A stretch of 12,261 bases of DNA from Sphingomonadaceae bacterium (GTDB lineage Bacteria; Pseudomonadota; Alphaproteobacteria; Sphingomonadales; Sphingomonadaceae), in NCBI GenBank assembly GCA_019245455.1, contig JAFARM010000178.1, forward strand, positions 1-12,261, given 5' to 3'. Below the pieces are notes generated by a model, which saw nothing but the letters and a program-made list of their open reading frames with translations, was not told the origin of the DNA and searched no databases. Positions 4,094-11,728 of this stretch are shown in pieces. A program made the position numbers and the translations under genes. The first letter of the stretch is position 1. Each line of letters begins with the position of its first letter.

Positions 4094-4696
4094 TCACATC
4101 AGATATATGGCATCGTCTCGGTTGAATTGCTCAACTATCAATGAAGCCTCGATGGGATGCTCTCCCTTCGCGAGCAGCCTGTCGAACAAGCGCGCGTCGA
4201 AACGCTCGCACAGGAAAGCGTAGCGGCAGACACTTATCAGCTTGGAACGATCCCACCGCGAAGCGTTTGACCGAGCATCGAAGAGGCGTTCCAGTTCGTA
4301 AAATGAAGGAATCGCGCTATTTCCGATCCAGCGATCATCTAAGAATGTGATTGCTTCACTCATCATCTCCTCTGTTACCGCGAAATCATTCTTGAATGGC
4401 TGATGCCATGGCGCACCGCTGTGGAACCAAGGGTATAGATTTCGCTCCCACGCATAGACATAGCCGTCATCGATGAGCCGCGATGTTCCTTCAGTAGCCG
4501 CTGCCGTGAGAATATCGAACTTCATCGACAAGAATTCGAAACTTCCGCCTGTCGCATTCAGTCCGACTTGGGCCAATCGACGGATTGCTTCCGCCCGTGA
4601 CGGGAGATCGCTTTGTTCCCCTCGCCACTCGTCTACCGAAGCCACAAACTCAGGTTCAACCCGCATCTCGAACCGAATTGATTTCTCATTGCCCAT
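4094..4696 (-). CDS. Ribbon-helix-helix domain protein with unknown C-terminal domain
   Basis: A 200-residue protein of unknown function. Residues about 7-46 (IRFEMRVEPEFVASVDEW, then LPSRAEAIRRLAQVGL) look like an Arc/MetJ-type ribbon-helix-helix: a short strand, an amphipathic helix, and the typical SRAEAIRRL second helix. Such domains dimerise and bind palindromic DNA. Residues about 50-200 are mixed helical, rich in Trp, Phe and Arg, and match nothing I recognise. The start is strong: GGAGG sits 6 nt upstream of the ATG. GC content is clearly lower than the neighbours; a 60-base sample at 4381-4440 counts to 50% against 77% for 5401-5460 in dprA. The gene lies 57 bp after dprA and 85 bp before topA on the same strand. 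No toxin gene is adjacent, so a toxin-antitoxin role is not supported. The reading frame is intact. It is probably a transferred DNA-binding regulator; its function is not known to me. Confidence 0.8.
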   Translation of the reverse strand: MGNEKSIRFEMRVEPEFVASVDEWRGEQSDLPSRAEAIRRLAQVGLNATGGSFEFLSMKFDILTAAATEGTSRLIDDGYVYAWERNLYPWFHSGAPWHQPFKNDFAVTEEMMSEAITFLDDRWIGNSAIPSFYELERLFDARSNASRWDRSKLISVCRYAFLCERFDARLFDRLLAKGEHPIEASLIVEQFNRDDAIYLM

Positions 4697-6634: not shown

Positions 6635-6784
6635 AGCTCCTCCCCGGGACGGGGAGGGGGACCGCGCGGCTTCTTCAGCCGCGTGGTGGAGGGGCCGGCC
6701 TCCGCGTGCTGGCTGGGCGTCACGCGGCGAGCGACCCCTCCGTCACGCCTGCGGCGCGCCACCTCCCCGTTCCGGGGAGGAACT
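6635..6784. repeat. 150-bp palindromic element with 26-nt inverted arms
   Basis: The left arm (6635-6660, CTCCCCGGGACGGGGAG core) and the right arm (6759-6784, CTCCCCGTTCCGGGGAG core) are reverse complements at 23 of 26 positions. Each arm is itself a small hairpin. The inner part continues the symmetry: TGGAGGGG near 6685-6695 faces CCCCTCC near 6735-6741. It resembles the CTCCCC/GGGGAG repeats I associate with sphingomonads and relatives. It has no transposase gene, and I see no clear target-site duplication. It fills most of the divergent gap between plsY and nadE. Of the rest, 6556-6634 (plsY side) and 6785-6823 (nadE side) show no convincing promoter boxes. Confidence 0.75.
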
Positions 6785-6823: not shown

Positions 6824-8473
6824 ATGGCCGACGCGCTGACCATCGCCCTCCAACAGTCGAATGCTTCGGTCGGCGACCTGCGGGCGAACGCCGACGCCAT
6901 GCTGCGAGCGCGGGCGGCGGCCGATGCCGACCTCGTCGTCACGCCCGAGCTGTCGCTGATCGGCTATCCGCCCGAGGACCTCGTGCTGAAGCCGGCTGCG
7001 GTCGCTGCCTGCGCCGCCGAGCTCGATCGGCTGGCGCGGGCGACCGCCGATGGCGGGCCGGGGCTGCTGGTCGGCGTGCCGCTGGCGGAAGGCGGCAAGC
7101 TGTACAACGCCATGGTATTGCTCGACGGTGGCCGTGTCGCCGGCATCACGCGCAAGCACGACCTGCCGAACTACGGGACGTTCGACGAAAAGCGCGTGTT
7201 CGCCTCGGCACCGCTGCCCGGCCCACTGACATTCCGCGACGTGCGCCTTGGCGTGCCGATCTGGGAGGACATATGGACGCCCGAGGTCGCCGAGTGCCTC
7301 GACGAAACGGGAGCGGAAATCCTGATCGTCCCGAACGGCAGCCCATTCGAAGTCGGCAAGGGCGACCGCCGCCTGTCGCAGTCGGTCAGCCGGGTGGTCG
7401 AGACCGGGCTGCCGCTCGCGTTTCTCAATCGCGTCGGTGGCCAGGACGAGCTGGTGTTCGACGGCGCGAGCTTCGTGCTCAACGCCGACCGGACGATGGC
7501 GTGGCAGCTGCCCGATTGGGACGAGGCGCTGGCGACGACCCGCTGGGCGCGCGGCAGCGCGGGCTGGCGCTGCTCGCCGGGCACGGTCGCCACGCTCGAT
7601 GGCGATCCGGGCGACATCTACCACGCCATGATCGTCGGGCTGCGCGACTATGTGAACCGCAACCGCTTTCCGGGCGTCGTCCTGGGTCTGTCGGGCGGGA
7701 TCGACAGCGCGCTTTCCGCCGCCGTCGCCGTCGATGCGCTGGGCGCCGACAGGGTATGGTGCGTGATGCTGCCGTCACGCTTCACCGCCGCCGCAAGCCT
7801 GGAGGACGCCGCCGAGTGCGCCCGCCTGCTCGGCTGCCGCCTCGACACGGTGCCGATCGCGCCGGCGATGGCGGCGTTCGATGCGATGTTGCGGCCGGTG
7901 TTCGACGGACGCGCCCCTGACCTTGCCGAGGAGAATATCCAGTCGCGTATTCGCGGGCTGACGCTGATGGCGCTGTCGAACAAGTTCGGGCCAATGCTGC
8001 TGACCACCGGCAACAAAAGCGAGATGTCGACTGGGTATGCGACAATCTACGGCGACATGGCCGGCGGATTCTCGGTGCTGAAGGACGTCTACAAGACGAC
8101 CGTGTTCCGCCTGTCGCAGTGGCGCAACGCCAATGTGCCGCGCCTCGGGCTCGGGCCGAAGGGGCCGGTGATGCCGCAGCGCGTGATCGACAAGCCGCCG
8201 ACCGCCGAACTTCGCGACAACCAGCGCGACGACGACAGCCTGCCGCCCTACGACCTGCTCGACGCCATCCTCGCCGGGCTGATCGAGGACGAGGCGTCGG
8301 CCAGCGACCTCGCCGCCCGCGGCTTCGACGCCGCCACCGTGGCGCGGGTCGAGCGCCTGCTCTACGTCGCCGAATACAAGCGGCGCCAGGCCCCGCCGGG
8401 GGTCAAGATCGGCCGGCGGAACTTCGGCCGCGACCGGCGCTATCCCATCACCAATGCGTTCCGGACAGGATGA
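6824..8473 (+). CDS. nadE: NAD+ synthetase, glutamine-dependent type, with altered glutaminase site
   Basis: Catalyses the last step of NAD+ synthesis: ATP-dependent amidation of nicotinic acid adenine dinucleotide. The 549-residue, two-domain protein has an N-terminal nitrilase-like glutaminase domain (about 5-250) and a C-terminal synthetase domain. In the first, Glu42 (TPELSLIGYPPEDL) and Lys111 (RKHDLPNYGTFDEKRVF) of the catalytic triad are present. The expected Cys in the V-P-I-C-E-D-I-W motif is Trp147 (codon TGG at 7262-7264), so glutamine hydrolysis should be lost or badly impaired if this is real. The synthetase domain is intact: P-loop LGLSGGIDSA (288-297), LTTGNKSEMSTGY (393-405) and KRRQAPPGVKI (519-529). 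I chose the ATG at 6824 because the family starts there; the open frame back to 6683 runs through the repeat. No clear ribosome binding site is seen. The stop overlaps the next gene's ATG. Confidence 0.95.
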   Translation: MADALTIALQQSNASVGDLRANADAMLRARAAADADLVVTPELSLIGYPPEDLVLKPAAVAACAAELDRLARATADGGPGLLVGVPLAEGGKLYNAMVLLDGGRVAGITRKHDLPNYGTFDEKRVFASAPLPGPLTFRDVRLGVPIWEDIWTPEVAECLDETGAEILIVPNGSPFEVGKGDRRLSQSVSRVVETGLPLAFLNRVGGQDELVFDGASFVLNADRTMAWQLPDWDEALATTRWARGSAGWRCSPGTVATLDGDPGDIYHAMIVGLRDYVNRNRFPGVVLGLSGGIDSALSAAVAVDALGADRVWCVMLPSRFTAAASLEDAAECARLLGCRLDTVPIAPAMAAFDAMLRPVFDGRAPDLAEENIQSRIRGLTLMALSNKFGPMLLTTGNKSEMSTGYATIYGDMAGGFSVLKDVYKTTVFRLSQWRNANVPRLGLGPKGPVMPQRVIDKPPTAELRDNQRDDDSLPPYDLLDAILAGLIEDEASASDLAARGFDAATVARVERLLYVAEYKRRQAPPGVKIGRRNFGRDRRYPITNAFRTG

Positions 8474-8913
8474 TCTCTCACCGCCTTCTGCGGGCCGACG
8501 AGACTGACCGCGCCGCCGATCTCCACCGCCGCGCCGGCGCGCTGATCCCCGGCTACGATACCTCGCGCCACACCCCGGCCGAGTTCGCCGCGCTCTACCG
8601 GGATCGGGTCATTCGCGCCGGGCCGATCTGGGGTGCCTACGACGGCCCGGCGATGGTCGGCTTCGTCGCCCTGCTGCCGGGTTGGATCGACCACCTCTAC
8701 GTCGAGCCGGCGCGCCACGGCGAGGGGATCGGGAGCGGCCTCCTTCGCCTGGCGCAGCGCGAGCAGGATGATCTGCAACTCCATACCTTCCAGGCCAATG
8801 TCCGCGCCCGCGCTCTGTATGAGCAGCACGGCTTCGTTCTGGCGGAACTGACTGACGGCTCGCGCAACGAGGAGCAGATGCCTGACGTCCGCTATTACTG
8901 GCGCCGAGGATGA
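8470..8913 (+). CDS. GNAT-family N-acetyltransferase
   Basis: A 147-residue protein of the Gcn5-related acetyltransferase fold, which moves an acetyl group from acetyl-CoA to an amine. Seen: WIDHLYVEPARHGEGIGSGL (72-91), in which Arg82-His-Gly-Glu-Gly-Ile-Gly88 fits the pyrophosphate-binding (Q/R)xxGx(G/A) motif A, and ANVRARALYEQHGFV (109-123), the usual motif B end. The N-terminal part (residues 1-50) is the variable, substrate-facing region. The substrate is unknown. The ATG overlaps the nadE stop (ATGA) and the TGA overlaps the gltX ATG (ATGA), so this gene is wedged between two housekeeping genes and probably made in step with them. The upstream extension of the open frame lies inside nadE and is rejected. 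Confidence 0.9.
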   Translation: MISHRLLRADETDRAADLHRRAGALIPGYDTSRHTPAEFAALYRDRVIRAGPIWGAYDGPAMVGFVALLPGWIDHLYVEPARHGEGIGSGLLRLAQREQDDLQLHTFQANVRARALYEQHGFVLAELTDGSRNEEQMPDVRYYWRRG

Positions 8914-10235: not shown

Positions 10236-10285
10236 ACCCTGCGGGCTGGCGGCGATGGCTGCCGGCGACTATATCTCGGTGGCGC

Positions 10286-10292
10286 AAGGGAG
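10286..10292 (+). promoter_or_regulatory. Ribosome binding site favouring a GTG start at 10300
   Basis: AAGGGAG, then 7 nt, then GTG. No comparable site precedes the in-frame ATG at 10255, so this decides the start of the small membrane protein. Confidence 0.5.
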
Positions 10293-10299
10293 ATGCCGG

Positions 10300-10668
10300 G
10301 TGGCCACCGAAACCTCGTTCCTGACCGACGTGCCGCGCTCGCGGCTCGTCATCGGCAGCCTGGCCGTGCTGATGACGGTCGTGGTCATGACCGGCTTCCT
10401 GCTCGAATCGCGCTGGGGTTATTCGCCGCGCGAGCCGAAGATCATCTACTTCAAGAGCTGGCGCGCCGACCGCAGCGATGCCGAGGTGGCGGCCGACAAT
10501 GCCGCCGATGTCGCGCGGGCGCGGGCCGAGGCGGCGGCGTCGCGCGCCTATATCGCAACGCTCCAGGGCGGCGCGCGAAATGCGGCGCAGGCGCAGTATG
10601 ATGCGTATCTGGCGGCCCAGCCCAAGGCGTTGCAGCCGCCGGGGTTCGTGCCGCCCAAGGCGAAGTGA
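10300..10668 (+). CDS. Small single-pass membrane protein of unknown function
   Basis: I do not recognise this 122-residue protein. It has a short polar N terminus, one transmembrane helix at about residues 16-35 (LVIGSLAVLMTVVVMTGFLL), then a short aromatic stretch (RWGYSPREPKIIYFKSW). An Ala/Arg/Asp-rich helical segment follows (about 57-100), likely a soluble helix, ending in a Pro-rich tail (QPPGFVPPKAK). The Arg residues just before the helix suggest the N terminus stays inside and the C-terminal part faces the periplasm. The GTG at 10300 is preferred for its ribosome binding site; an ATG at 10255 would add 15 residues. The stop overlaps the ribD start (GTGA), which argues that it is a real, translated gene coupled to riboflavin synthesis. 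The gap from gltX is 64 bp. Confidence 0.75.
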   Translation: MATETSFLTDVPRSRLVIGSLAVLMTVVVMTGFLLESRWGYSPREPKIIYFKSWRADRSDAEVAADNAADVARARAEAAASRAYIATLQGGARNAAQAQYDAYLAAQPKALQPPGFVPPKAK

Positions 10669-11696
10669 GCGACGACTCCCGTTGGATCGGCGCGGCGCTG
10701 GCGCTGGCCGAGCGCGGCATCGGCCGGACGGCGCCCAATCCGAGCGTCGGCTGTGTGATCGTGGGGGCAGGCCGCGTCGTCGGGCGCGGCTGGACGCAGC
10801 CGGGCGGGCGGCCGCACGCCGAGGCAATGGCGCTGGCAGCGGCCGGGGAGGCCGCGCGCGGCGCGACGGCGTTCGTCACGCTCGAACCGTGCGCGCACGT
10901 CTCGCCGCGCGGGCCGGCGTGCGCCGACCTGCTTGTCGCCGCCGGTGTCGCCCGCGTCGTCGCCTGCGGCACCGATCCCGATCCGCGAACGGCGGGGCAG
11001 GGGTTTGCGCGGCTTCGGACCGCCGGGATCGACGTTGTGGAGGGCGTCCGGCGGGCGGAGGCGGAGCGGTTGAACGCGGGCTTCCTCGCGCGCCGGCACC
11101 ACGGACGGCCACACGTCACACTCAAGCTGGCACTGTCGCTCGACGGGTCGATCGCGCTCGCTGACGGGCGTAGCCGCTGGATCACGGGCGAGCGGGCACG
11201 CGCGCACGCGCATCTCGAACGCGCTTGGGCGGACGTGATCGTCGTCGGGGGAGGGACCCTGCTCGCCGACGATCCCACGCTCGATGTTCGGCTGCCGGGA
11301 CTGGAGGAGCGCGCTCCGCGGCGGGCGGTGCTCAGCACGTCGCTTGCCGCTATCCCGCCGGGCGCGCGCATCGGCGAGGCGCGACTGCTCCGCGACATCG
11401 CCGAACTGGACGCCGACCCGTCGGTGCTGAGGGTGCTCGTCGAGGGCGGGGCGGGAGTGGCGACGACGCTGCTTGCCGCCGACCGCGTCGACCGGCTGCT
11501 GGTGTACCGCGCGCCGATCCTGCTCGGTGGGCGGCGGGGCATCGGTGACCTCGGGCTTGCCGACCTCGCCGAGGCGCACGGGCGGTGGCGGCGGGTCGAC
11601 GCGCTCGAGCTGGGGCCGGACGGCGTCGAGCTGTTCGAGCGCCAACGCTCCATCTGTCATCCCCGCGAAAGCGGAAGCCCATCTCCTGCGGCTTGA
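10665..11696 (+). CDS. ribD: Bifunctional riboflavin biosynthesis deaminase/reductase RibD
   Basis: Carries out two consecutive steps of riboflavin synthesis: deamination of the diaminopyrimidine intermediate, then NADPH-dependent reduction of its ribosyl chain. The 343-residue protein has an N-terminal deaminase domain with NPSVGC (25-30), the zinc and catalytic HAE (51-53) and TLEPCAHVSPRGPAC (72-86). The zinc ligands are probably His51, Cys76 and Cys86; the Cys-Cys loop is one residue longer than the common PCSHxGRTPPC form. The reductase domain follows: LKLALSLDGSIA (153-164), SRWITG (170-175), GGGTLLADDPTLDVR (195-209), LVEGGAGVATTLL (258-270) and YRAPILLGG (281-289). Translation starts at a GTG overlapping the preceding stop. 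The last 13 residues (331-343) and the stop codon are encoded by a palindromic repeat. Confidence 0.95.
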   Translation: MSDDSRWIGAALALAERGIGRTAPNPSVGCVIVGAGRVVGRGWTQPGGRPHAEAMALAAAGEAARGATAFVTLEPCAHVSPRGPACADLLVAAGVARVVACGTDPDPRTAGQGFARLRTAGIDVVEGVRRAEAERLNAGFLARRHHGRPHVTLKLALSLDGSIALADGRSRWITGERARAHAHLERAWADVIVVGGGTLLADDPTLDVRLPGLEERAPRRAVLSTSLAAIPPGARIGEARLLRDIAELDADPSVLRVLVEGGAGVATTLLAADRVDRLLVYRAPILLGGRRGIGDLGLADLAEAHGRWRRVDALELGPDGVELFERQRSICHPRESGSPSPAA

Positions 11697-11728
11697 GGCG
11701 ATGGGTCCCCGCTTTCGCCGGGATGACA
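11655..11728. repeat. Palindromic repeat, copy 2, overlapping the ribD 3' end
   Basis: A 74-bp imperfect palindrome beginning TGTCATCCCCGCGAAAGCGG and ending in its near reverse complement, of the same family as 1236-1346 but with almost no central loop. Its first 42 bases encode the ribD tail and stop. It ends 17 bp before the ribE ATG, so the transcript between the two genes would carry a long stem. The remaining 17 bp hold AGAAGG (11729-11734), a weak ribosome binding site 11 nt from the ribE start. Confidence 0.8.

Follow-up and report, generated by a model that had tools for sequence, protein, structure and literature searches.

The glutaminase activity of two-domain NAD+ synthetases (NadE) depends on a Cys-Glu-Lys triad, described for the human and M. 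tuberculosis enzymes as Cys175/176, Glu45/52 and Lys114/121 in passages of PMC6946656, in keeping with the chemistry assumed in the original prediction, namely that the cysteine is needed to release ammonia from glutamine. Passages of PMC6946656 and PMC3376133 state that two-domain enzymes also accept free ammonia, the cellular level of which is typically low according to the latter; PMC10037102 cites a Salmonella NAD synthetase mutant whose growth is poor when ammonium is below 1 mM, as well as viable Rhodobacter mutants in adgA (NAD synthetase), named for their ammonia-dependent growth. A search of the open-access literature found no paper on a NadE without the catalytic Cys.

The window analysed here is one whole contig of 12,261 bases, belonging to a metagenome-type assembly of 2.65 Mb in 430 contigs with an estimated completeness of 95.2%. 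Its nadE gene (Table 1) encodes a protein that matches the NCBIfam profile NF010588/PRK13981 over residues 2-548 of 549 with 770 bits, against a cut-off of 479, and in which the fused nitrilase-like and synthetase domains (PF00795 and PF02540) are both found. In the synthetase domain the SGGxDS motif of the ATP site is kept, S290, G291, G292, D294 and S295 being among the columns that are invariant in 30 sequences. The triad, instead, is incomplete: Glu42 and Lys111 are retained, as had been predicted, and the nucleophile codon, which is in frame within the 549-residue reading frame, is indeed TGG, one base away from a Cys codon; residue 147 aligns with the Cys of the ICED motif in the NadE structures 4f4h, 5kha and 3n05. 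Nor does the protein correspond to the single-domain, ammonia-dependent type of NadE, which has no glutaminase domain, since here this domain is present at full length. Judged from its sequence, it is a member of the PRK13981 family by descent which, as written, should not be an active glutaminase.

Table 1. Position of the nadE gene, its domains and its glutaminase triad in the window.
Feature	Position	Strand	Residues or details	Basis
nadE, two-domain NAD+ synthetase, PRK13981 type	6824..8473	+	549 aa; ATG at 6824, stop codon ending at 8473	ORF and domain/profile matches
Nitrilase-like glutaminase part	6824..7588	+	1-255 by the split used in the analysis; PF00795 match 16-239	
NAD synthetase domain	7622..8392	+	267-523	PF02540
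Glu42, triad member, present	6947..6949	+		Sequence/alignment
Lys111, triad member, present	7154..7156	+		Sequence/alignment
Trp147 (TGG) where the nucleophile Cys is expected	7262..7264	+		Alignments

In the comparison with relatives proposed in the original prediction, Cys occupies the nucleophile column in 261 of the 262 other NadE sequences examined (named and unnamed collections being pooled, with some genomes possibly counted twice), all congeners included, and Trp147 is therefore not chance variation at a loosely constrained column. Cys is present in all 143 other sequences from the order and the closest hits, which together with the sequence under study form an alignment of 144, four of them partial, and in 118 of 119 NadE places across the phylum, the one exception being Gly; these 119 places derive from a search of 150 genomes (29 returned as loci and 90 fetched), the gene under study, long-type enzymes, weak hits, places short of the column and matches beyond those listed being set aside. 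The four full-length nadE genes of the same genus, at 84-88% identity, have a TGC or TGT codon within VPICEDIW or VPVCEDIW, and a fifth congener gene, although partial, has Cys also; a loss of the Cys throughout the clade was thus rejected. The nearest named relatives of the protein, a Sphingomonadales MAG and Sandarakinorhabdus oryzae, are both 79% identical to it, which points to a sphingomonad as the host. When the motif was searched with the TGG codon, matches were obtained in 5 of 396 genomes of the order and 5 of 385 of the class, the genome under study being counted in each; none of the four other matches in the order and four others in the class translates as NadE, so that no other Trp form was found in these genomes. 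With a Cys codon in place of TGG, the motif matches 176 of the 396 order genomes (places not checked individually); more than half of the genomes thus escape it, and these might include a further Trp form.

Other unusual copies were encountered among the relatives. Two of them lie on viral contigs and both have Cys, a phage-borne copy being among the readings rejected, and the single Ala at the Lys111 column belongs to a broken gene (L139) that is out of frame at that point. In a single-contig genome with 86% estimated completeness, NadE is split over two frames with an internal TGA (G012:C1:71518-73157), and either a broken gene or a sequence error may be the cause. Many genomes of the same family (f1) as the one under study lack a strong match to the 549-residue NadE, their weak matches lying in reading frames some 680-870 residues long; the family thus seems to alternate between two types of NadE.

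The sole Gly among the 262 sequences belongs to a degraded relative (L318:4119-5528, minus strand) from a genome of the class, G512, which carries another NadE-like gene. With 334 bits this relative stays below the PRK13981 cut-off of 479, and it has also lost the Trp adjacent in the motif, the motif of the ATP site and its C-terminus; its open frame of 469 residues, in which both active sites are degraded, adjoins a gltX-like frame, and it is possibly a pseudoenzyme or a late relic. The absence of the nucleophile is what it has in common with the gene under study, in which the other elements are all kept and for which no such companion was found.

A decay of the glutaminase domain is, on balance, not supported. 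In the 144-sequence alignment Trp147 is the only place where this protein departs from a residue that all the other sequences share; of 26 glutaminase columns without variation in the other sequences (two divergent rows being set aside), 25 are conserved in it. With column 147 removed, the terminal branch of this protein in a tree of 31 sequences measures 0.1185 for the glutaminase and 0.0808 for the synthetase domain, a ratio of 1.47 compared to 1.62 for the whole tree; apart from that column, the rate of evolution of the glutaminase domain is thus not exceptional. In a leave-one-out score of glutaminase minus synthetase the protein ranks 71st of 138, yet above all six of its nearest relatives. 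Of its private changes with respect to six close relatives, six fall in the glutaminase and one in the synthetase domain, the corresponding numbers for five of the six relatives being 16 and 17 (Fisher p 0.08, or 0.13 if Trp147 is left out and 0.20 if the sixth relative, G017, is added), and residue 139 is Asp where 134 of the 142 relatives having a residue at that column have Gly. This lean and Asp139 are a weak hint, too weak for a long-standing loss.

As to the quality of the sequence, each of seven other full-length relatives (L142, L080, L118, L140, L059, L023 and L085) likewise has just one private change at a column that is invariant elsewhere; at least two of them are named isolates (L080 and L085) and at least one is a MAG (L059). 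A single change of this kind in a gene thus belongs to the background, and here it fell on the nucleophile. In GltX, encoded on the same contig, no private change is found at columns invariant in 30 sequences, which argues that the contig is not visibly error-rich. A mis-joined contig was considered and rejected, the gene order topA-dprA-plsY-nadE-gltX being the same in two other genomes (G003 and G001).

Some features of the surrounding DNA were also recorded. Upstream of nadE (6635-6781, plus strand) lies a dispersed, partly palindromic repeat of about 150 bases, for which 80 matches are listed in the genome, this copy included, many of them arising from one site matched on both strands; by DNA search, the best of the other long copies are 82-91% identical. 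A shorter repeat, CCCGCNTTCGCGGGNATGAC, forms two inverted pairs with at most one mismatch (1236-1255, 1327-1346, 11656-11675 and 11708-11727; none is expected by shuffling) and is found in exact copies in 8 of the loci fetched from other genomes. Between nadE and gltX a GNAT acetyltransferase is encoded (8470-8913, plus strand), a match to which was found only in G002 when the neighbourhoods of 11 relatives, not all of them long, were searched; two frames of 200 and 137 residues (4094-4696, minus strand, and 10255-10668, plus strand) have no Pfam match.

In the AlphaFold model of the Trp form the fold is kept (mean pLDDT 88.3, pTM 0.90, the block 141-150 reaching 95), its best fold matches being the solved NadE structures 4f4h, 5kha and 3n05; residue 147 opens a short helix (147-151) that comes after the strand 140-143. 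A shifted Cys filling the site, which had been named as an outcome that would overturn the prediction, was not encountered: Cys158, 11 residues downstream, was rejected as a replacement nucleophile since it is common to congeners that also carry Cys147.

No second NadE was found in the assembly, the two weak PF02540 matches being GMP synthase and QueC, and NadE seems to be its sole NAD synthetase; NadA is present, and a member of the PncB/NAMPT family was found neither here nor in five congeners, several of which are incomplete. With a single NadE and no bypass of the PncB/NAMPT type found, a real loss of the glutaminase should be costly; on the other hand, the use of free ammonia by two-domain enzymes and the existence of ammonium-dependent mutants suggest that the cell could live, at a price, if Trp147 were real.

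Four explanations of Trp147 were weighed, and the weights expressed in the following are judgements, not computed values. The likeliest, to which we give about an even chance, is that NadE is a normal glutamine-dependent enzyme and that the consensus base is wrong, through sequencing, assembly or strain mixing. The codon is private to this assembly, which is fragmented, and the rest of both domains is intact; that the base is wrong we infer. The organism would then possess a normal enzyme, whose Cys-Glu-Lys triad would hydrolyse glutamine and whose ammonia would be channelled to the synthetase domain for the amidation of NaAD to NAD+. A real and very recent point mutation, or a strain polymorphism, is a serious contender whose chances we put somewhat short of even: the glutaminase would be dead, glutamine would no longer feed the synthetase domain and NAD+ would come from free ammonia only, while the mutation would be too young for the rest of the domain to have changed. 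The open frame and the integrity of every other feature of nadE are consistent with such a mutation, as are the lack of an excess of odd residues in GltX and the lean of the private changes towards the glutaminase domain, which mild relaxation would give; moreover, the single changes in at least two named isolates indicate that changes of this kind can be real, and, besides the acceptance of free ammonia by two-domain enzymes and the viability of the adgA mutants, structure-entry titles show that crystals of the C176A mutant from M. tuberculosis were obtained with ATP and NaAD as ligands. What speaks against a recent mutation is its occurrence in one assembly only, together with the cost expected where no bypass is found and free ammonia is typically low.

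A long-established ammonia-only NadE, in which the nitrilase domain would be kept for structure or subunit assembly and Trp would fill the glutamine pocket, could draw on the high confidence with which the Trp-form fold is predicted, on Asp139 and on the six private changes out of seven in the glutaminase domain; it is nonetheless improbable, given that all invariant glutaminase columns but one are kept, the rest of the triad included, that the domain has not evolved faster, that the congeners have Cys and that no other Trp form was found in the order and class genomes. Hardly credible is the reading of this nadE as a spare gene in decay, the functional NadE being encoded in sequence that the assembly lacks: the incomplete assembly, and the degraded relative beside another NadE-like gene in G512, are in its favour, but the synthetase domain and motifs are intact here, unlike in that relative, and no second copy was found in the assembly. 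Of the two sides of the original prediction, the alternative of an error or a recent mutation fits the data better, and an evolved dependence on free ammonia less well, because the Trp occurs in a single, fragmented assembly, is the sole deviation among the invariant columns and is accompanied by no clear decay of the domain. At the level of sequence, Trp147 is best regarded as a lone single-base deviation in an enzyme that is standard in all other respects, and an evolved trait is not supported.

If the wrong base is the explanation, the case matters only as a caution: one base of a draft assembly can make an important activity look lost. A real Trp147 should abolish the hydrolysis of glutamine and leave the synthetase domain to work with free ammonia; a two-domain NadE could then persist in nature without its glutaminase, tying the supply of NAD+ to free ammonia, and would offer a natural test of the roles of the nitrilase domain besides glutamine hydrolysis. 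That a free-living sphingomonad naturally maintains a glutaminase-dead two-domain NadE, with the whole nitrilase domain kept and NAD+ made from free ammonia alone, is a possibility entertained here with more doubt than confidence; were it true, Asp139 and the lean of the private changes would be the first signs of relaxation, and the enzyme would be a natural equivalent of the C176A mutant made in the laboratory.

Compared with known systems, the protein shares with the enzymes of Burkholderia thailandensis (4f4h) and Acinetobacter baumannii (5kha), and with PRK13981/NF010588, its length, both domains, Glu42, Lys111 and the synthetase motifs, the identity in fold alignments being 46-47% and 41% to the two structures, respectively; it differs from these structures in having Trp in place of the nucleophile Cys. 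The M. tuberculosis C176A enzyme (3seq, 3sez, 3szg and 3sdb, by their entry titles) is likewise an otherwise intact two-domain NadE without its nucleophile, but it carries a laboratory Ala in a NadE of the longer type, whereas the Trp found here is either natural or erroneous. The Rhodobacter adgA mutants, compared here by their growth as given in PMC10037102, illustrate the physiology that would be expected if Trp147 were real.
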